A stretch of 64,000 bases of DNA from positions 3,100,001 through 3,164,000 of the forward strand of contig NZ_CP116383.1 of assembly GCF_028201475.1 (NCBI RefSeq). The letters run 5' to 3'. The notes beneath the pieces were generated by a model. It had not been told where the DNA came from. It saw only the letters and a program-made list of their open reading frames with translations, and did no database searches. A program made the position numbers and the translations under genes. The DNA comes from Vibrio sp. SCSIO 43137. Its GTDB lineage: Bacteria; Pseudomonadota; Gammaproteobacteria; Enterobacterales; Vibrionaceae. Below, piece by piece: positions 27,597-40,314 of this stretch (positions are counted from its first letter, which is position 1; each line of letters starts with the position of its first letter).

Positions 27597-27877
27597 AGAT
27601 GCATTGTCCTGATTATAAATAACAATGCAGCACAAAAAGCTCTCTGCCGCAAAGCGGAGAAAGGCTTGTTTTTAACCTGGTGCTACGACAGGGCGCAATC
27701 GGCGCGCGGCACAGTCTATCACTTCAGTTACAGAGAGCAATGAAAACCGCCTTTACTGTGTGGATAAGCAGGCTGTTTTACCCGCAAATCAGCCATCTTT
27801 ATCGGCTACAAACCTGTACAAATAGACAGTTAAATGCTTGAATATCTCACAACTCATATATGGAGCTTTGCCAGCTT

Positions 27878-29952
27878 ATGCCACAACTATTATCTGCTAT
27901 TCCAGTGATGTCATTGACCGGCGTCGGCGCCAAGGTAGCCGAAACTGGTTAAGGTAGGCATAAGCAGTGTTCAGGATCTGCTGTTTCACCTTCCGCTGCG
28001 TTATGAAGACAGAACCCGTATCTATCCGGTTGCTCAGTTGCACCACGGTTTGTGGGCTGCGGTACAGGGTAAAGTGATGAGTGTTGACACCATTTTCGGT
28101 CGCCGCAAAATGCTGACGGTAAAGATCAGTGACGGAAACGGTACGGTTACCCTGAGGTTCTTTAATTTCACTGCCGGTATGAAAAACCATTTTAGTCAGG
28201 ATCGGCTGGTGCACGCCTACGGCGAAGTAAAACGTGGCAGCTACGGGCTGGAGATCGTGCATCCTGATTATAAGTTTGTTACCGGTTCCCGGCAGGAAGT
28301 CAGTGAACAGTCACTTACTCCCGTTTACCCGACCACGGATGGGTTACGACAAATCACTCTGCGTAACTTAACCGAACAGGCTCTGGAACTACTGACTCAG
28401 TCAGCTGTTGAAGAGCTGTTACCGGCAGGGCTTTATGATCGCCAGCTAACCCTTGAGCAAGCATTGCTGTTTATTCATCGCCCGCCACCGGATACCGATC
28501 TAACCGCGTTCGATGAGGGAGAAACTCCAGCACAGAAAAGGCTGATTATCGAAGAGCTGCTGGCGCAGAACTTATCTATGCTGGCTGTACGTAGTAAAGG
28601 GCAGCAAGATCATGCTCTGGCACTTCCATCAGCCAGTAACTACAAAAACCAGCTCCTGTCTCAATTGCCTTTCTCTCCGACCGGAGCACAATCGCGTGTT
28701 TGTCGCTGAAATTGAAGCGGATCTGCTTAAGCCTCACCCTATGATGAGACTGGTGCAGGGCGATGTCGGCTCAGGAAAAACTCTGGTTGCCGCACTGGCA
28801 GCACTACAGGCTATAGAACACGGCTATCAGGTCGCCCTGATGGCACCCACTGAACTATTGGCAGAACAACACAGTAAAAACTTTGCAGACTGGCTGGAAC
28901 CAATGGGAATACCCGTCGGCTGGCTTGCCGGTAAACTAAAAGGGAAAGCCAAAGAAAAAGAGCTTGAGCGAATCGCCGGCGGTGAGGCAAAAATGGTAGG
29001 CACTCACGCCCTGTTTCAGGAGCATGTCTCTTTCCATAATCTGGCCTTAGTTATTATTGATGAACAGCATAGGTTTGGGGTTCATCAGAGGCTGAAGCTG
29101 CGGGAAAAAGGGGAAGCTCAGGGCGCATTCCCCCACCAGTTGATTATGACTGCCACACCGATCCCGAGAACCTTAGCCATGACGGCATATGCCGATCTGG
29201 AGACCTCTGTTATTGATGAACTGCCTCCGGGCAGAACGCCGATTCAGACCGTCGCCATTCCGGACACCAAGCGCGCAGATATTATCGAACGGGTTAAAAA
29301 TGCCTGCCTTAATGAAGGCAAACAGGCTTACTGGGTCTGTACCCTTATTGATGAATCAGAGGTGCTGGAAGCTCAGGCCGCCGCAGACACAGCACTTGAA
29401 CTACAGCAGCAGTTACCCGAACTGAAAATAGGACTGGTACACGGCCGGATGAAGCCTGATGAGAAACAGGCTGTCATGCAGCAATTTAAAAATAATGAAC
29501 TTCATCTGCTGGTTGCCACTACCGTTATTGAAGTGGGCGTTGATGTTCCCAATGCCAGCCTGATGATTATTGAAAACCCGGAACGTCTCGGACTGGCACA
29601 ATTACATCAGCTGAGAGGCCGTGTAGGGCGCGGACAAGTAGCCAGTCACTGCGTGCTTCTCTACCATTCACCTTTATCAAAAACCGCCCAGAAGCGTTTA
29701 GGCGTTCTCAGAGAGAGTAATGACGGATTTGTTATAGCACAGAAGGATCTGGAGATCCGTGGCCCCGGCGAGCTATTAGGCACCAAACAGACGGGGCTGG
29801 CGGACTTTAAAATAGCCGACCTGATCCGCGATCAGAAACTCATTCCGGAAGTTCAGAAAATAGCCCGCTATATTCATGAAAATCACCCACAAAATGCTCA
29901 TGCCATCATTCAACGCTGGCTGGGCGACAGAGATGTGTTTGCCAAGGCTTAG
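27878..29952 (+). pseudogene. recG: ATP-dependent DNA helicase RecG, interrupted by two frameshifts
   Basis: RecG remodels stalled replication forks and Holliday junctions. All domains are recognisable: wedge/OB fold, the Walker A motif RLVQGDVGSGKTLVAALAAL, the DEQH box (IIDEQHRFGVHQRL), TATPIPRTLAMTAYADL, and the C-terminal GRVGRG and RGPGELLGTKQTG. The reading frame breaks twice. Near 27942-27944 two bases appear lost from an A-run (GAAACTG where GAAAAACTG is expected), stopping after 24 codons. Near 28698-28701 one T is extra (GTTTGTC), giving a stop at 28709. The gene is either a recent pseudogene or carries local sequence errors. Its stop overlaps the envZ-like stop by 4 bp. Confidence 0.9.
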
Positions 29953-30599
29953 GCATCATTCGCTTTGGTATACGGGATAGTGAGGCGGGCTTTAAGCCCG
30001 CCTTCCGCTCTGTTACAGACAGAAAAACTGCCTGAGTGCTGCTTCGCAACACGACAGACAATGGCCAGCCCTAACCCGGTTCCGCTGGTGGCTTCTTCTC
30101 CGCGCTGAAAAGGTTGCATCAGCCGCTCAACTTGAGACGCCTGGATTCCCGGACCGTTATCCTCAACACAAAACCAGATAGAGTCGCGCTTGCGGCTAAT
30201 GCCAGTGGAGAGTTTTATCCATCCTTTACCGTAACGGAAGGCATTAGTAATTAAATTGGATAGTGCTCTGCGTATCGCAATAGGATCAACAAAAACAGCG
30301 ACGATATGCTCATCTAAATCGGTTTCTATCTGGCCGGGCTCACTGCCCTGAAATAAACTAACTACATCTCTGATTAACGGATTGATACTCACACAGACGG
30401 GCAAGCTTTTATCAGCAGAACGAGCAAATTCCGTTAGCTGATTAATGATCAAGTGGCAATCTTCTGTGTCCTGCACAATGCCCTTAGCGAGCTGTCTTTC
30501 ACTATCGGATAGCAGCTCGGCAGCAAGCCGGATTCTGGCTAATGGAGCACGTAGATCATGACAAACCTGCGCAATAACTATCTCTCTGTCTTTGCCCAT
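29949..30599 (-). CDS. envZ: Sensor-less EnvZ-like histidine kinase
   Basis: The 216-residue product contains only the catalytic core of EnvZ. It has the H-box (QVCHDLRAPLARIRLAAELL, His14), the N-box NLITNAFRYGKGW, the G1 motif VEDNGPGI and the G2 motif GTGLGLAIVCRVAK. E. coli EnvZ has about 220 further N-terminal residues (two membrane helices, periplasmic domain, HAMP); none are present, and a TAG stop lies two codons before the ATG. The conserved Thr of HDLRT, needed for phosphatase activity, is Ala here (codon GCT). It follows ompR by 48 bp containing a hairpin. The protein should be cytosolic. It could be an intact minimal kinase or a decaying remnant. Confidence 0.88.
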   Translation of the reverse strand: MGKDREIVIAQVCHDLRAPLARIRLAAELLSDSERQLAKGIVQDTEDCHLIINQLTEFARSADKSLPVCVSINPLIRDVVSLFQGSEPGQIETDLDEHIVAVFVDPIAIRRALSNLITNAFRYGKGWIKLSTGISRKRDSIWFCVEDNGPGIQASQVERLMQPFQRGEEATSGTGLGLAIVCRVAKQHSGSFSVCNRAEGGLKARLTIPYTKANDA

Positions 30600-30623
30600 T
30601 TAACTATACTTCACCCTTGCACA

Positions 30624-30641
30624 ATATTGGCTGACCAATAT
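30624..30641. other. Hairpin in the ompR-envZ gap
   Basis: A perfect 7-bp stem ATATTGG/CCAATAT with a four-base loop fills much of the 48-bp gap. There is no T-run, so it is not a terminator; it could modulate envZ translation or mRNA stability. Confidence 0.5.
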
Positions 30642-30647
30642 CACGAG

Positions 30648-31367
30648 TCAGATTTTTTCACCATCTGGTACAAAAACATAACCTAGCCCCCACACAGTCT
30701 GGATATACCTTGGGCGGGTATGATCTATTTCAATCAGACGCCTTAATCTTGATACCTGAACATCAATGGATCGCTCAAGGGCAGAATACTCCCGCCCCCG
30801 CGCAACATGCATAAGCTTGTCTCTGGACATAGACTCTCGGGGATGTGTAACCAAAGCCTTTAATACTGCAAACTCACCCGAAGTAAGCGGGATTCTTTTT
30901 TCTCCCTTAAATATCTCTCTGGAACCCAGACTGAAACGAAAACCGCCGAACTCTATATATTTGTCTATCGGGCTTGGCGCTCCTGGTGGCTCAGCAACCT
31001 GACGGCGCAAAACCGTCTTAATCCGGGCATGAAGTTCCCGCGGGTTAAATGGTTTACAAAGATAATCATCCGCTCCTGCTTCCAGCCCTCTTATCCGCTC
31101 ATCTTCACTTCCGAGCGCCGACAAAAAAATAATCGGAATATCGTTCCCACAGGCCCGGATACGCCGGCACGCGGATAAACCATCCTCTCCGGGCAAAATC
31201 AGATCCAAAATAACAAGATTGTACGACTCCCGTGTCATCATACGATCCATCTGTTCAGTGTTGACCACGCAGCGGATCTGAAACCCTTTATCTGCCAGAT
31301 AACGCTCGAGCAATGAGCGTAACCGTGGATCATCATCAACAATCAGTAATCTCTGATAGTCTTGCAT
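30648..31367 (-). CDS. ompR: Response regulator OmpR
   Basis: OmpR controls porin and osmotic/acid-response genes. The 239-residue length equals E. coli OmpR and similarity is high throughout: acidic pocket VDDD (10-13), phospho-acceptor Asp55 in LILDLILPGEDGLS, Lys105 in CKPFNPREL, and the winged helix with LTSGEFAVLKALVTHPRE, LERSIDVQVSRLRR and QTVWGLGYVFVPDG. The switch residue at 83 is Ser instead of the usual Thr, and residue 85 is Leu where E. coli has Lys. I chose the ATG at 31367, preceded by GGGAGGGG. The envZ-like gene follows. Confidence 0.95.
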   Translation of the reverse strand: MQDYQRLLIVDDDPRLRSLLERYLADKGFQIRCVVNTEQMDRMMTRESYNLVILDLILPGEDGLSACRRIRACGNDIPIIFLSALGSEDERIRGLEAGADDYLCKPFNPRELHARIKTVLRRQVAEPPGAPSPIDKYIEFGGFRFSLGSREIFKGEKRIPLTSGEFAVLKALVTHPRESMSRDKLMHVARGREYSALERSIDVQVSRLRRLIEIDHTRPRYIQTVWGLGYVFVPDGEKI

Positions 31368-31585: not shown

Positions 31586-32173
31586 ATGACATCACTGCCG
31601 TTACTTTTTCTGGGCGCTTTTCTTGATGCTCTTATTGGTCCCAACTTATTTGTTCCCGGCGAACCTTTTTTACTGGCAGCCGGTTATCAACTACATCAGG
31701 GAGTCTATCTGGCCGCTTTTGCGGTATTGCTGGGCAGCTTTGCCGGCGATCAGTTAAGTTACTTTATCGGTCTCAGATACGGCCAGAAACTGACAAAAGC
31801 TTTAGTTCGTCATCACCCCAGAGTCCGTCGCTCAGTAGCACGCTGCAGGCTTCTCATGTACCACAAAGGCAATTATGTTCTCACCTTCTCACGTCTGCTT
31901 GGCCCTGTTGCATGGTTTGTTCCTTGTATGGCCGGTATCAGTCAAATCAGTTGGGCACGCTTTACTTTCTACTCTGTTATCGGCCTTATTCTTGGGGTAG
32001 GACAGTTTCTGATCTGGGGGTATCTGCTCGCTTACGGCCTGAACAGCACTATTCTGTTAGAGAGCGCAAAACTGTTTATCGCAGAACATAAAACGACTGT
32101 GTTGATTCTGACTTTTGCCGGCATATTGCTGTTTTTCCGTTTACTAACCAGAAAACCGCATTGCAGAAGCTAA
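31586..32173 (+). CDS. DedA family membrane protein
   Basis: A 195-residue inner-membrane protein with 4-5 hydrophobic segments. It has DedA signatures: GEPFLLAAGYQL near the N-terminus, GSFAGDQLSYFIGLRYG, and FSRLLGPVAWFVPCMAGIS. DedA proteins act in membrane homeostasis, some as undecaprenyl-phosphate or phospholipid translocases. No strong ribosome site precedes the ATG. It stands between ompR and greB, which are adjacent in many relatives, so it looks like a lineage-specific insertion at this spot. Confidence 0.88.
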   Translation: MTSLPLLFLGAFLDALIGPNLFVPGEPFLLAAGYQLHQGVYLAAFAVLLGSFAGDQLSYFIGLRYGQKLTKALVRHHPRVRRSVARCRLLMYHKGNYVLTFSRLLGPVAWFVPCMAGISQISWARFTFYSVIGLILGVGQFLIWGYLLAYGLNSTILLESAKLFIAEHKTTVLILTFAGILLFFRLLTRKPHCRS

Positions 32174-32259: not shown

Positions 32260-32733
32260 ATGAAAACGAACCTGATTACCCGTGAGGGGTACAACAAACT
32301 AAAGAACGAACTGGATTTTCTCTGGCGCGAAGAGCGTCCGGAAGTGACCAAGAAGGTTACCTGGGCAGCCAGCCTCGGCGACAGAAGTGAAAATGCCGAC
32401 TACCAGTACAATAAAAAACGCCTCAGGGAGATAGACCGCAGGGTTCGCTACCTGAGAAAACGTCTTGAACAGGTTAAAGTTGTTGACTACTCACCTCAGC
32501 AGGAAGGTAAAGTTTTCTTTGGTGCCAGCGTCGAAGTTGAAAATGAAGCCGGAGAGAGCCTTAAGTTTAAGATTGTCGGCCCTGACGAGATCTATGGCGA
32601 TGCCAAGGGCTATATCTCCATTGACTCTCCTATGGCACGCGCACTACTGAAAAAAGAAGTGGATGACGAAGTAGAGGTGAGAACGCCGGAAGGCATCAAA
32701 ACCTGGTTTGTTAACAGCATCGACTACCTTTAA
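32260..32733 (+). CDS. greB: Transcription elongation factor GreB
   Basis: GreB rescues backtracked RNA polymerase by stimulating transcript cleavage. The 157-residue protein has an N-terminal coiled coil whose tip carries the acidic pair in [22 protein letters not shown] and a C-terminal FKBP-like domain ([27 protein letters not shown], cited as landmarks). Basic residues along the coiled coil favour GreB over GreA. Synteny with ompR agrees. Confidence 0.96.
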
Positions 32734-35362: not shown

Positions 35363-35424
35363 TTGCAATAAAGTTAGATTTTTGTATCATGCCTTATCAA
35401 TATTACGAATGATAACAATTCGCA
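35363..35424 (+). promoter_or_regulatory. Promoter and Fur box of the imelysin cluster
   Basis: A -35 TTGCAA (35363-35368) and -10 TATCAT (35385-35390) are 16 bp apart. At 35410-35424 is TGATAAC-A-ATTCGCA, matching 11 of 14 positions of the 7-1-7 Fur consensus (TGATAAT-N-ATTATCA). It lies just after the expected start point, a repressing position. Iron repression through Fur is inferred. Confidence 0.6.
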
Positions 35425-35468
35425 ATGACATTAAAATAAAAACATCACGCTCAACAAGGATACTTCAG

Positions 35469-36731
35469 ATGAATGCAAAAAAAGTCGCGCTGCACTCCGT
35501 AGCTGCTTCACTTCTTATTGCCAGTGGTAGCACCATGGCTGCACAAGTAACAAAACAACAAGTGGTTGAACACTATGCCGATGTTGCTCACGCCGTTTTC
35601 GCCGACTCTCTGACCACAGCTAAAACGTTAGAGACGAAGATTGATCAGTTTCTGGCTGCTCCTTCAGAAAAGAAACTTGAACAAGTAAAACAAGCCTGGC
35701 TTGACTCTCGTGTACCGTACCAACAGTCTGAAGTATTCCGTTTCGGTAACACCATTGTTGATGACTGGGAAGGACAACTAAACGCATGGCCACTAGATGA
35801 AGGCCTGATTGACTACGTAGCCAAAGATTATCAACACGAACTAGGTAACGAAGGTGCAACTGCGAATATCGTTGCTAACACAAGCCTGACTATCGGTGCT
35901 TCAAAACTAGACGTAGCAAAAATCACTCCTGAGCTGATTGCTGATCTGAACGAAGTTGGCGGTTCAGAAGCGAACGTAGCATCAGGTTACCACGCTATTG
36001 AGTTCCTTCTTTGGGGACAAGATCTGAACGGTACTAACGCTGGTGCAGGACAACGTGCCTACACTGACTTTGTAGTAGGTTCTGCATGTACAAATGGTAA
36101 CTGTGAACGTCGTGGTGAGTACCTGCGTGCCGCTGCTGATCTTCTGGTTGAAGATCTGGCGTGGATGGAAAAGCAGTGGTCTGCTGATGTGAAAGGCAAC
36201 TACCGTGAAGAGCTGCTTTCTGACTCTGCTGACAACGGTCTGCGTAAAATGCTGTTCGGTATGGGCTCTCTGTCACTGGGCGAACTTGCCGGTGAGCGCA
36301 TGAAGGTTGCTCTGGAAGCAAACTCAACTGAAGATGAGCACGACTGCTTCTCTGACAACACTCATAACTCTCACTACTACAACGAACAAGGCATCTACAA
36401 CGTCTACACCGGCTTGTATAAGCGTGCAGACGGCACACTGCTTTCAGGAAAGAGCCTTGCTGATCTGGTTGCCCAGAAAGACCAGAAAGCTGCTAAAGAG
36501 ATCCAGAAGCAGTTTGATATGACCCGTAGTCAGGTTGGCCAGTTGGTTACTTCTGCTGAGAAAAACAATGTTTACTTTGATCAGCTAATTGCTAACGGTA
36601 ACGTACAGGGCAACAAGCTAGTAAACACGACAATTAAGGCACTGGTAGACCAGACAGCAGCCATTGAACGTGCAGCAGGTATTGTTGGTATCAGCAGCCT
36701 GAACCCTGATACCGCTGACCACGAGTTTTAA
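35469..36731 (+). CDS. Imelysin family periplasmic protein (IrpA-like, peptidase M75 fold)
   Basis: The 420-residue precursor has a signal peptide (KKVALHSVAASLLIASGSTMA). The imelysin (M75) domain includes the GxHxxE motif in GYHAIEFLLWGQDL, proposed to bind metal, plus DDWEGQLNAWPLDEG and a pair of Cys in GSACTNGNCERRGEYL. Members are iron-regulated, periplasmic or surface proteins; a protease role has been questioned and iron or haem handling is favoured. I placed the start at 35469, after CAAGGATACTTCAG; a longer reading from 35382 would overlap the Fur box. It leads the four-gene cluster. Confidence 0.88.
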   Translation: MNAKKVALHSVAASLLIASGSTMAAQVTKQQVVEHYADVAHAVFADSLTTAKTLETKIDQFLAAPSEKKLEQVKQAWLDSRVPYQQSEVFRFGNTIVDDWEGQLNAWPLDEGLIDYVAKDYQHELGNEGATANIVANTSLTIGASKLDVAKITPELIADLNEVGGSEANVASGYHAIEFLLWGQDLNGTNAGAGQRAYTDFVVGSACTNGNCERRGEYLRAAADLLVEDLAWMEKQWSADVKGNYREELLSDSADNGLRKMLFGMGSLSLGELAGERMKVALEANSTEDEHDCFSDNTHNSHYYNEQGIYNVYTGLYKRADGTLLSGKSLADLVAQKDQKAAKEIQKQFDMTRSQVGQLVTSAEKNNVYFDQLIANGNVQGNKLVNTTIKALVDQTAAIERAAGIVGISSLNPDTADHEF

Positions 36732-36757
36732 TTGGCTACTCCTATAATATAAATTTT

Positions 36758-36779
36758 AGGGCTCTTAAAGAGCCCTTTT
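36758..36779 (+). terminator. Terminator or attenuator between the imelysin and the di-haem gene
   Basis: A perfect 8-bp stem AGGGCTCT/AGAGCCCT with a TAA-type loop runs into TTTT, 27 bp after the imelysin stop. It would lower expression of the downstream genes relative to the first, unless they have their own promoter. Confidence 0.8.
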
Positions 36780-36823
36780 GCCATTTAAGCTCCTTCACTT
36801 GTCGTATTTTTTAGAGCAATGCT

Positions 36824-38206
36824 ATGAAGTCATATTTTATTCCCTTAATCGCAACTATTTTCTCTGTTTCAACTCACGCTTACGGGGTTAAATCCGGCGG
36901 CAATACCAGTGTTAAGAAAAACGGTGCTAATGCCTATTCCCTGCCGGCAGCCAACCTTCCCCTGAGCAAACGCCTCGATTTTAGTGTTGGTAACAGCTTC
37001 TTTAAAAACCCGTGGGTTCAGGCTCCCGCCTCAACAGACGCACGGGACGGACTTGGTCCGCTATTTAACACTAACGGCTGTCAGAACTGTCATATTAAAG
37101 ACGGCCGCGGCCACCCACCAGAACAGGGCGATATTCACGCTGTATCAATGCTGGTACGACTTAGCATTCCGGCAATGACAGCAGAGCAGAAAAAAGCCTA
37201 TATCCTCGACGGAGCAATACCTGAACCGACCTATGGCGGCCAACTACAAGATTTCGCCCTTCAGGATCAGACACCAGAAGGGAAAATTAACATCAGCTAT
37301 AGCGATGTTAAGGTTCAGTTTACAGACGGAAGCGAAGTTACCCTCAGAAAACCACACCTAAAAATTACCGATTTAGGCTACGGTGAAATGCATCCGGATA
37401 CTCAGTTTTCTGCCCGTGTTGCACCGCCAATGATAGGGCTCGGCTTACTGGAAAGTATTGCTGATGAGACTCTTCAGGCCTGGGCTGACGAACAAGACAC
37501 AAACAAAGATGGCATCTCAGGCAAGCTAAACAAGGTCTGGGATGTCGAAAAGAAAGATTTTTCCATCGGCCGCTTTGGCTGGAAAGCCGGTCAGCCGACA
37601 CTGATGCAGCAAAATGCCGCCGCATTTAATGGTGATGTCGGTTTAACAAGTCACCTGTTCCCTAATGAAAACTGCACGGTAAATCAGTCTATCTGTAGTG
37701 ATCTGCCCAATGGCGGCTCACCGGAAGTCAGTGAAAATATTCTCGACTTTGTAGAGTTCTACAGCCAGCATCTGGCGGTGCCAATCCGCCGCAACAGTAA
37801 AGATGAACAGGTTAAACTCGGGCAGCAGCTGTTCGCCTCTTCAGGCTGTGAAAGCTGCCATAAAACCAATGTGAAAACGGCTAAACGTTCAGAATTACCG
37901 GCCTTATCAGAGCAGACCATTCACCCCTATACCGACCTGTTGCTGCACGATATGGGAGAAGGTCTGGCTGACAACCGTCCTGAGTATCTGGCAAACGGCC
38001 GGGAGTGGCGTACTGCTCCACTATGGGGTATTGGTTATACAAAAGAAGTTAATGGTCACACCTATTTCCTTCATGACGGCAGAGCGCGCAACCTGATGGA
38101 AGCCGTGCTCTGGCATGGCGGTGAAGCTGAGACAGCCAAACAAAAAGTATTAACGCTTAATCAAAAAGAACGTGATGCGCTCATTGCTTTCTTAAACTCA
38201 CTATAA
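36824..38206 (+). CDS. Di-haem c-type cytochrome-like oxidoreductase (DUF1111)
   Basis: The 460-residue exported protein has an N-terminal signal peptide and two haem c motifs, CQNCH (residues 86-90) and CESCH (342-346). It belongs to the DUF1111 / di-haem 'thiol oxidoreductase' family, distantly like bacterial di-haem peroxidases (MauG/CcpA). Landmarks include the calcium-like DTNKDGISGKLN loop and LHDGRARNLMEAVLWHGGEA near the C-terminus. A possible role is periplasmic redox chemistry on iron, linked to the imelysins on both sides. Substrate unknown. Confidence 0.88.
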   Translation: MKSYFIPLIATIFSVSTHAYGVKSGGNTSVKKNGANAYSLPAANLPLSKRLDFSVGNSFFKNPWVQAPASTDARDGLGPLFNTNGCQNCHIKDGRGHPPEQGDIHAVSMLVRLSIPAMTAEQKKAYILDGAIPEPTYGGQLQDFALQDQTPEGKINISYSDVKVQFTDGSEVTLRKPHLKITDLGYGEMHPDTQFSARVAPPMIGLGLLESIADETLQAWADEQDTNKDGISGKLNKVWDVEKKDFSIGRFGWKAGQPTLMQQNAAAFNGDVGLTSHLFPNENCTVNQSICSDLPNGGSPEVSENILDFVEFYSQHLAVPIRRNSKDEQVKLGQQLFASSGCESCHKTNVKTAKRSELPALSEQTIHPYTDLLLHDMGEGLADNRPEYLANGREWRTAPLWGIGYTKEVNGHTYFLHDGRARNLMEAVLWHGGEAETAKQKVLTLNQKERDALIAFLNSL

Positions 38207-38216
38207 GGGGGCTGTA

Positions 38217-39248
38217 ATGAATAAAACTCTTCTGGCCGGGCTGACACTTACTATAGGCATAGCAGGATGTCAGTCTAACTCAACCCCTGAGAAGGTTCAG
38301 GCGGAACAAACCAACTCTGTCTCTCAGCCGGTGTATGAGATTGAACATCATTATGCTCAGCAGTTTCTCGGGCAGACCGCAATGTTGGAGAGCGCTCTGC
38401 AACAGTTCTGTGCAGAGACGACAGATAAAAAGGCCGTAAAACAGCAGTGGCATCAGACCATGCAAGCCTGGATGAAGCTGCAGGGGCAGGAGCGCGGGCC
38501 TGAAGCTGCACTGGAACAGAGCTGGAATATTCAGTTCTGGCCGGACAAAAAGAATACCACCGGCAGAAAAATGGCTGCACTTACCAATAGTGACAAACAG
38601 TGGACTCAACAACAGATAGCAACACAGAGCGTTACTGTTCAGGGGCTTGGTGCACTGGAGTGGCTGCTTTACGACAGTAAATCTCCCCTAAAGAGAGGAG
38701 AGGAAAGCTGCTCAACAGCAACGGCCATTGCCGGCAATCTGCATAATAACGCCAAGATCATTGCTTCAGCATGGTCAGAGAACCCGTGGAAAGCTCTGAG
38801 CGATAAAGAGTGGACTTCCGAGTATCTGTCGCTTCTTTCCAACCAGCTTGAATACAGTATGAAGAAGCTGAGCCGGCCTCTGGCTAAGATTGGTCAGCCA
38901 CGGCCTTACTTTGCTGAATCGTGGCGCTCAGAAAGCTCATATGCCAACCTGAAATCTAACCTACAGGGGATGCAGGCACTCTATTTTGCTGACGGAAAAG
39001 GGCTTGATGCCCGGCTTCGCAGTATAGATAAAGCCGAACTTGCAGACCGGATAGCAAACCAGTTCAGCACTGCACTGGAGACATGGCCGGAAGAGCAAAG
39101 CTTGTTTGCCTCACTCAAAGGGAAGGAAGGCTACCGCAACGCATTAGCGCAGTACAATAAGCTGGAGTACCTCAAACACCTGATACACGAAGAAGTGGCC
39201 ATTGAGCTTGGTGTAGTAATAGGATTTAACGCAACTGATGGTGACTGA
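38217..39248 (+). CDS. Second imelysin family protein, lipoprotein
   Basis: This 343-residue protein is a predicted lipoprotein (lipobox IAG-Cys near residue 19). Its imelysin-like domain includes WNIQFWPDKKNTTGRKM and VQGLGALEWLLYDS. That second segment aligns with the GxHxxE motif of the first imelysin, but has Gly in place of His (GLGALE), so metal binding must differ. AAGGGGGCT precedes the ATG, 10 bp after the di-haem gene. Its end overlaps the next gene by 11 bp, showing a tight operon. Confidence 0.85.
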   Translation: MNKTLLAGLTLTIGIAGCQSNSTPEKVQAEQTNSVSQPVYEIEHHYAQQFLGQTAMLESALQQFCAETTDKKAVKQQWHQTMQAWMKLQGQERGPEAALEQSWNIQFWPDKKNTTGRKMAALTNSDKQWTQQQIATQSVTVQGLGALEWLLYDSKSPLKRGEESCSTATAIAGNLHNNAKIIASAWSENPWKALSDKEWTSEYLSLLSNQLEYSMKKLSRPLAKIGQPRPYFAESWRSESSYANLKSNLQGMQALYFADGKGLDARLRSIDKAELADRIANQFSTALETWPEEQSLFASLKGKEGYRNALAQYNKLEYLKHLIHEEVAIELGVVIGFNATDGD

Positions 39249-40314
39249 TAATAACCGCAGGAGACTGCTTAAAGCAGCGCTTTTTGGCGCTGCTGCTCCC
39301 GTACTGCCGTTTGGCTGTGCTGCTGTAGCTGATGAGAAAAAACCAGCCTTGATTGGCTGTGCTATTAATGGCCGTGATAAATTCTCTGCCGTAGTGGCAG
39401 ATGAACACGGCTTACCCATTGCTACACTGCCCATTCCGGATCGCGGTCATGGCGTTGCTACTAATCCTCAGGGACATGCAGCGGTTATCGCGCGGCGGCC
39501 GGGTACCTTCTTTATGGTGTTTGATTACAATACTCAACAGATAATCAAACTACAGCCTGCCGCTGCAAACCGTCACTTCTATGGTCACGCTGTCTACTCT
39601 CAGGATGGCAACTATCTGTTTACCACTGAAGGGGAAGAAGGCACCAGTCGCGGAATTATAGGGGTTTATGACGTCGCCAATCAGTACCGTAAAGTCAATG
39701 AGCTGAGCGGATTTGGTATCGGCCCCCATGAAGTGATTATGATGCCCGATAACACCTTGGTTGTCGGAGTCGGCGGTGTACATACCAATGGTCGTCAGCC
39801 TCTGAATCTGGATAGCATGCAACCCAGCCTGAGTTATCTTTCCATCAATGGGGAGCTGCTTGATCAGGTCTCTCTTTCAGACCATAAACTCAGTATCCGC
39901 CATCTGGCTCACGACGGCTCAGAGACTGTACTTTGTGGTCAGCAGTATCGCGGAGAACCGGATGAATATCCGTCCCTTCTTGCTATGCATACCCGCGGAA
40001 GTGAAATGAAGCAACTTAAAGCTGAACCTGAGCAGTGGGCGCGTTTTAATCACTATATTGCCAGCATTGCCGCAACAGATGAGTGGATTCTGGCCACCTC
40101 GCCTCCTGGTAACTGCTATGGCATATGGTCAAAGGAAAGCGGTGAACTGGTTGAGCTTAACGCACTTCCTGACGCCTCTGGCGTGGTGGTTTATGATGAC
40201 GAGTTCCGTATCAGCTCAGGGGCAGGAAAAGTTGTTAAGCAGATTGCGGGAAGATCAAAGCAAAGTTTTTCCAGCACCATTCAGTGGGATAATCACTGGT
40301 CGAAAATAATTTAA
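39238..40314 (+). CDS. Tat-exported DUF1513 family protein
   Basis: The 358-residue protein starts with a twin-arginine signal (NRRRLLKAALFGAAAP), which implies folding or cofactor insertion before export. The remainder fits the DUF1513 family, a predicted beta-propeller (repeats of G/H...V...D pattern, e.g. HGVATNPQGHAAVIARRPG and YGHAVYSQDGNYLFTTEGE). Conserved His residues (GHG, YGHA, GPHEV, IRHLAHDG) could bind metal. The gene is last in the imelysin cluster and overlaps its neighbour by 11 bp. Function unknown; iron handling is inferred from the cluster. Confidence 0.85.
   Translation: MVTDNNRRRLLKAALFGAAAPVLPFGCAAVADEKKPALIGCAINGRDKFSAVVADEHGLPIATLPIPDRGHGVATNPQGHAAVIARRPGTFFMVFDYNTQQIIKLQPAAANRHFYGHAVYSQDGNYLFTTEGEEGTSRGIIGVYDVANQYRKVNELSGFGIGPHEVIMMPDNTLVVGVGGVHTNGRQPLNLDSMQPSLSYLSINGELLDQVSLSDHKLSIRHLAHDGSETVLCGQQYRGEPDEYPSLLAMHTRGSEMKQLKAEPEQWARFNHYIASIAATDEWILATSPPGNCYGIWSKESGELVELNALPDASGVVVYDDEFRISSGAGKVVKQIAGRSKQSFSSTIQWDNHWSKII

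Follow-up and report, generated by a model that had tools for sequence, protein, structure and literature searches.

A natural EnvZ shortened to its catalytic core next to ompR in Vibrio sp. SCSIO 43137

EnvZ is a textbook membrane sensor of osmotic stress, and its sensing by membrane and cytoplasmic parts has been studied through engineered fragments (PMC8320348). Can an EnvZ do without its membrane parts in nature? This question is raised by Vibrio sp. SCSIO 43137, in which the kinase gene next to ompR encodes the bare enzyme and thus offers a natural test of the need for those parts. The gene lies in a stretch of 64,000 nucleotides of contig NZ_CP116383.1 (positions 3,100,001 to 3,164,000), below called the window, and all coordinates refer to this window.

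Structure of the short envZ gene and its product

The envZ gene (29949..30599, minus strand) encodes 216 amino acids, beginning at the equivalent of residue 230 of E. coli EnvZ. A preliminary description of the locus had claimed an open reading frame that starts 13 residues before the phosphorylated His and lacks membrane parts. The frame itself, Pfam and hydropathy confirmed this: translation starts with ATG, and the phospho-accepting His is residue 14 (E. coli His243; codon 30558..30560, minus strand), in the motif HDLRAPL. The in-frame stop codon described upstream of envZ is also present (TAA), but it directly abuts the ATG instead of lying two triplets away. Pfam matches above cutoff are HisKA (residues 7–61) and HATPase_c (residues 105–211), with no HAMP among them. 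A 19-residue hydropathy scan indicated no transmembrane (TM) helix (largest mean 1.47). By Pfam and hydropathy, the 216-aa protein thus lacks the HAMP and both TM helices of EnvZ, and its periplasmic domain as well. The NCBIfam EnvZ model NF007004 scored 236.6 bits over model positions 230–437 of 440. Its cutoff is 415, and a protein without the front half would be expected to fall short of it; the runner-up NCBIfam model reached 107.2 bits.

The top three PDB sequences found by sequence search are EnvZ. The AlphaFold2 model (alignment A1, 50 rows; mean pLDDT 81.3, pTM 0.63) consists of helices 2–28 and 32–61 followed by an alpha/beta ATP-binding domain, with lid residues 165–174 at pLDDT below 50. 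In a Foldseek search with this model, the best two matches were to EnvZ 4kp4, followed by CpxA and EnvZ 4cti. We assign the helical hairpin for dimerisation and His phosphotransfer (DHp) to residues 2–61 (30417..30596, minus strand), using HisKA 7–61 and the AlphaFold2 helices, and the ATP-binding (CA) domain to residues 105–211 (29967..30287, minus strand), where the N, G1, F and G2 boxes are present. These boxes, the phospho-His and the acidic residue at H+1 are invariant columns of A1 and are all kept, and the claim that the kinase boxes are intact was right.

The spacer between ompR and envZ is 48 bp long (30600..30647, minus strand), as had been described. In five congener loci it measures 54–73 bp; thus, the front of envZ is missing and not hidden in the spacer. 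An in-frame reading of the spacer, LVILVSQYC, resembles the first TM helix (TM1) of Vibrio EnvZ. We rejected it as a fossil of TM1, since between 6% and 93% of shuffled spacers scored as well, the share varying among the six targets tried. A second full-length envZ, which the preliminary description had suggested looking for, was not found in the genome; the next kinase has 27% identity (E 5.6e-25). We also compared the sensor half of EnvZ from the genus-mate G203 with this genome, which gave four matches up to E 10. The best (E 3.3e-8) covers residues 132–224, part of the TM/HAMP end, and lies inside the frame of a different kinase; no stray sensor half was found.

Locus, relatives and distribution

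The gene order acs-aroQ-accB-accC-queE-queD-recG-envZ-ompR-dedA-greB-prmA-dusB-fis is the same in the window and in G203, apart from an inverted greB in G203. The window envZ is directly downstream of ompR, within the ancestral neighbourhood, and G203 has a 454-aa envZ frame at the equivalent locus. Identity between the two genomes ranges from 65% (DedA) to 98% (Fis) for the flanking proteins, and is 47% for the EnvZ core and 67% for OmpR. Among 12 genes compared with G203, the envZ core has the highest pN (0.375), with 0.253 for dedA, 0.215 for ompR and 0.072 for prmA. For 7 of the 12, including envZ and ompR, there is no finite dS, and hence no clean dN/dS.

Judged by sequence and position, the window gene is an in-place, vertically inherited EnvZ orthologue. 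Its best named non-reduced protein relatives are EnvZs of Vibrio, which, like the shared gene order, speaks against replacement of the ancestral pair by a divergent ompR-envZ pair from elsewhere. Such a replacement would account for the low identity to genus-mates of the EnvZ core (40–51%) and OmpR (67–70%) beside PrmA (82–88%; OmpR and PrmA among the matches listed). However, no OmpR other than its own is more than 70% identical to that of the window among the matches listed, and G203 itself is partly diverged, with means to the others of 63.5% for the EnvZ core and 82.0% for OmpR. We give replacement next to no weight.

The recG gene (27875–29952, plus strand), which adjoins envZ, contains two reading-frame changes, near 27943 and near 28704; in G203 recG is one 709-aa frame. 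The only further recG match in the genome, 42% identical, is a 1156-aa frame that looks to us like Mfd. The breaks in recG are either real decay or sequence error. The gene between ompR and greB (31586–32173, plus strand) is presumably DedA-like. Its G203 counterpart is 65% identical, and the regions retrieved from G022, G065, G118 and G220 gave no match to it. In the window greB (32260–32733, plus strand) is co-directional with prmA, but its orientation is opposite in the G203, G022 and G065 regions, which means that greB was turned round or replaced. Further on, at 35382–40314 (plus strand), there is a run of four genes that we take to include imelysin-like and dihaem-cytochrome-like members, possibly an iron-related cluster.

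Three proteins from short contigs, apparently metagenomic, are close to the window EnvZ and are shortened as well. P0002 has 216 aa, 78% identity and the same start, length and architecture. P0003 (302 aa, 64% identity) has a Pfam HAMP and two hydrophobic segments, with a loop that by eye is a few residues long. P0004 (276 aa, 60% identity) likewise has two hydrophobic segments, but Pfam shows no HAMP in it. In the trees, a long branch with support 100/100 splits the four reduced EnvZs from all other rows. P0002 is joined to P0003 in one tree (93/80). A smaller tree leaves the placement of P0002 open and does not reject grouping it with the window protein (p-AU 0.284). G203 appears as sister of the reduced EnvZs with support of only 40/11. 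Their identity makes it likely that the membrane part was lost once, with the internal order unsettled by the trees.

These relatives also bear on whether an assembly or sequence error deleted about 660 bp, which the preliminary description had named among the findings that would overturn its reading. The broken recG next door belongs to the same record and fits such an error. But P0002, a protein of another species, has the identical start and length, P0003 and P0004 are shortened too, the genome is in 2 contigs and 99.98% complete, and elsewhere in the window large genes, rpoB and rpoC among them, have long uninterrupted frames. We consider an artefact highly improbable.

In the genus, we searched 227 genomes including the window's own; 220 matched at 1e-35, and frame lengths were collated by hand for all 219 matching congeners. 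It turned out that none of the 219 has the short form. A frame of at least 424 aa, with room enough for the sensor judging by length, is found in 212. The other seven (G084, G087, G133, G134, G144, G146 and G246) have frames of less than 400 aa. As candidate soluble forms they were rejected: the sensor-coding sequence is in place in all seven, and they carry disrupted full-length envZ genes with frame changes or gaps. Either EnvZ loss is tolerated in these genomes, or there may be sequence errors; the assemblies of G084, G087 and G144 consist of 2–3 contigs. G109 and G125, missed at 1e-35, gave 471- and 478-aa frames in a looser search. Also outside the 219 are G026 (no match in the looser search), G079 (a single weak match to a kinase, E 7e-16), and G130, G191 and G218 (no match at 1e-35). 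On the question posed earlier of whether the short form is conserved in a clade, it recurs in P0002 and in none of the 219 matching genus-mates.

At the order level, 176 of 295 genomes (own genome included) matched. Among the matches listed, frames below 300 aa occur only in the window and in G057, and 341-aa frames are found in G493 and G393 of genus g77. G057, a genome of 1.66 Mb from another family of the order, has ompR followed directly by a 231-aa EnvZ-core frame (within G057:C1:670000-684000) with no hydrophobic segment (largest hydropathy mean 1.09). It is a separate loss of the sensor in another lineage. A scan of genome contigs with the window EnvZ gave six loci, the best at 39% and none a near relative. 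A scan of viral sequences with the window EnvZ gave nothing, and a plasmid scan gave 3598 matching records, all below 60% identity. Among the papers listed from the CC-licensed PMC literature, none described a naturally occurring EnvZ that lacks its membrane parts, which is weak evidence of absence. That a natural membrane-free EnvZ core exists, in at least one other lineage as well, is well supported by these sequences.

Changes beside the phospho-accepting histidine and in OmpR

The HDLRT motif of EnvZ reads HDLRA in the window, as had been described: codon 18 (30546..30548, minus strand) is GCT, and position H+4, the equivalent of E. coli Thr247, is Ala18 and not the Thr/Asn of E/DxxT/N. 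Thr stands at H+4 in 78 of 78 congener locus frames (fetched loci, several genomes twice, which do not cover all 219) and in all 114 non-reduced EnvZs among 120 proteins listed. Among the reduced EnvZs, P0004 shares the Ala with the window, and P0002 and P0003 keep Thr; hence, the Ala is not tied to sensor loss. Three distant kinases from the protein search also have Ala at H+4.

Other changes are common to all four reduced EnvZs. The equivalent of Gly240, which is Gly in 46 of 46 non-reduced rows, is Gln or Glu (Gln at codon 11 in the window, 30567..30569, minus strand), Ser13 (E. coli 242) is Cys, both positions lying beside the His, and the Thr250 equivalent is Ala. Forty-one columns are invariant in the 46 non-reduced rows of A1; ten of them are altered in at least one reduced protein, and three (Gly11, Ser13 and Phe55) in all four. 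Ala10 (239), His14 (243) and Asp15 (244) are retained in the window EnvZ, and their E. coli counterparts Ala239, His243 and Asp244 are the residues named by the cytoplasmic-osmosensing model of EnvZ (PMC8320348).

What can be expected of an EnvZ with these changes? Thr247 of EnvZ is reportedly a subject of Dutta et al. 2000. The Thr/Asn at H+4 is described as the general phosphatase residue of HisKA kinases (PMC3510030, PMC11502775), and one natural kinase has Val there (PMC11502775). The importance of Thr247 for phosphatase activity in E. coli EnvZ, stated in the preliminary description, agrees with the published T247A protein, which transfers phosphate to OmpR but has lost the dephosphorylation of OmpR~P (PMC2991266). 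T247R favours the kinase state (PMC12742742). In the alanine scan of E. coli EnvZ, G240 and T247 are among the residues that strongly affect autophosphorylation (PMC2991266). The forecast of a kinase-biased enzyme is therefore sustained only in part: low phosphatase activity is predicted by analogy with T247A, but changes at both positions also hit autophosphorylation, so that the bias towards kinase may amount to slow kinase activity beside little phosphatase activity. By this analogy, we predict for the window EnvZ low phosphatase and possibly slow kinase activity, and not simply a stronger kinase.

The partner gene ompR (30648..31364, minus strand; stop codon at 30648–30650) is complete and encodes 238 aa. 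Asp55 and Lys105 are kept. We compared OmpR with 48 distinct congener-locus sequences, from which identical ones and those outside 225–250 aa had been dropped. The window OmpR has a mean identity of 67.6% to this set (one outlier, 41%), and the 48 average 89.9% among themselves. Of the 167 positions with at least 97% invariance, 26 are changed in the window OmpR, including M57I, T83S, K85L and P104C. Ile57, Ser83 and Leu85 are found in the window alone among the 118 readable of 120 OmpR-like proteins listed. The D+2 (M57I) and T+2 (K85L) residues are thus both altered. That these changes are linked to the lost phosphatase of the kinase is a guess. The OmpR partners of P0002–P0004 were not recognised among the best 120 OmpR matches, from a search that scored the 7998 candidates sharing most words with the query. 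The window combines a lost sensor with an OmpR at about 68% identity within one genus.

Selection, predicted activity and comparison with known systems

Divergence is far greater in the EnvZ core and in OmpR than in most of the genes around them. This also fits relaxed constraint, and 45 of the 100 positions with at least 97% invariance among congeners have changed in one or more reduced EnvZs, which indicates a weaker constraint than the genus shows as a whole. The main rival explanation is that EnvZ/OmpR osmotic control is no longer needed and the kinase is decaying, its boxes unhit so far. The faster evolution of the two proteins, the loss of otherwise invariant residues beside the His, the doubly broken recG and the disrupted envZ frames of 7 of the 219 matching genus-mates are all compatible with decay. 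Against decay, the open frame with its catalytic boxes persists across four diverged proteins, and OmpR is present and complete. In addition, the window EnvZ and P0002 have diverged at 47 of their 216 residues without acquiring a stop, but at only 3 of the 41 invariant positions, where 8.7 changes are expected under unconstrained change to equal identity. Three changes or fewer at these positions (chosen from the 46 non-reduced rows, with the window and P0002 excluded) arose in 0.95% of 4000 simulations, and jointly with no stop in 0.15%; the simulation ignores indels and takes P0002 as derived from the same short form. This gives moderate support, from sequence comparison, for purifying selection on the short EnvZ shared by the window and P0002, and we regard decay as rather unlikely.

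We therefore lean, with somewhat better than even confidence, to a functional cytosolic OmpR kinase that arose from a vertically inherited EnvZ by 5' shortening to the DHp-CA core. The shortening has removed the periplasmic domain, TM helices and HAMP and left only the core, which would form a soluble dimer, autophosphorylate on His14 and pass the phosphate to Asp55 of OmpR. With Ala at H+4, it would dephosphorylate OmpR~P poorly. The level of OmpR~P would then be set by the kinase activity, by the lability of the OmpR phosphate, which we count as a factor because the D+2 and T+2 residues are changed, and by any cytoplasmic influence on the His14 helix. As a speculation, the shared Gly-to-Gln/Glu change may stabilise this helix and fix a basal kinase state. 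From its sequence, the protein likely works as a kinase and, with the published mutants in mind, is probably phosphatase-poor; perhaps it is also tuned by the cytoplasm.

It is also conceivable that the core is kept mainly as a scaffold that binds OmpR, acting by contact and not by phosphotransfer. In Salmonella, the D55A variant of OmpR remains active under acid stress but depends on contact with EnvZ (PMC5686162), and the H-box of the window EnvZ is altered at residues that matter for autophosphorylation in E. coli. But contact alone would not need His14, Asp15, the N, G1, F and G2 boxes and Asp55 of OmpR, all of which are kept, and we find the scaffold improbable.

The cytosolic kinase that we prefer need not be blind to signals. 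The preliminary description had called the protein cytosolic and signal-independent. The membrane-free core bears out the first half; the second does not follow, since the fragment EnvZc (180–450) is reported to osmosense without the membrane and to drive an ompC reporter (PMC8320348). Signal-independence is unproven and runs against the EnvZc reports, and this comparison is an extrapolation, the window protein being shorter. A bolder version of our reading, possible although doubtful, is that the periplasmic domain, HAMP and the membrane anchor were lost stepwise in this order, and that the core was selected as a cytoplasmic sensor-kinase with its osmotic or pH input at the His helix, a dispensable phosphatase and co-evolved OmpR dephosphorylation (M57I, K85L). 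If true, it would be a natural proof of wholly cytoplasmic EnvZ input.

Among known systems, EnvZ of E. coli and Vibrio (NF007004) is the best family by sequence and fold. The window protein shares with it the DHp-CA core, the HDLR motif and ompR directly upstream, and differs by the absence of the periplasmic domain, TM helices and HAMP, by the Ala at H+4, and by changed Gly240 and Ser242 equivalents. The 341-aa EnvZ of G493 has likewise lost the periplasmic sensor and kept the kinase, but it retains what by eye is a HAMP region, along with an extended hydrophobic stretch that can be read as two TM segments. This protein and that of G393 may resemble the shortened EnvZ of Xenorhabdus. The G057 EnvZ is also a membrane-free core directly after ompR; in contrast to the window protein, to which it is 37% identical, it belongs to a separate lineage, and its H-box, HDLQTLLARIRL, has Thr at H+4 and has lost the next Pro. 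Full-length G203, P0003, P0004, P0002, the window and G057 form a graded natural set for testing membrane versus cytoplasmic sensing. Within it, the 216-aa proteins of the window and P0002, otherwise similar, differ naturally at the phosphatase residue, with Ala in the former and Thr in the latter. The laboratory fragment EnvZc of E. coli is a membrane-free core too, but it is engineered and has 50 more upstream residues (180–229), whereas the window EnvZ is natural and begins at the equivalent of 230. Finally, CpxA engineered to lack its periplasmic domain (29–163 removed) is a constitutive kinase (PMC3904827); it resembles the window EnvZ in the loss of the sensor and differs in being another kinase from which only the sensor was removed.
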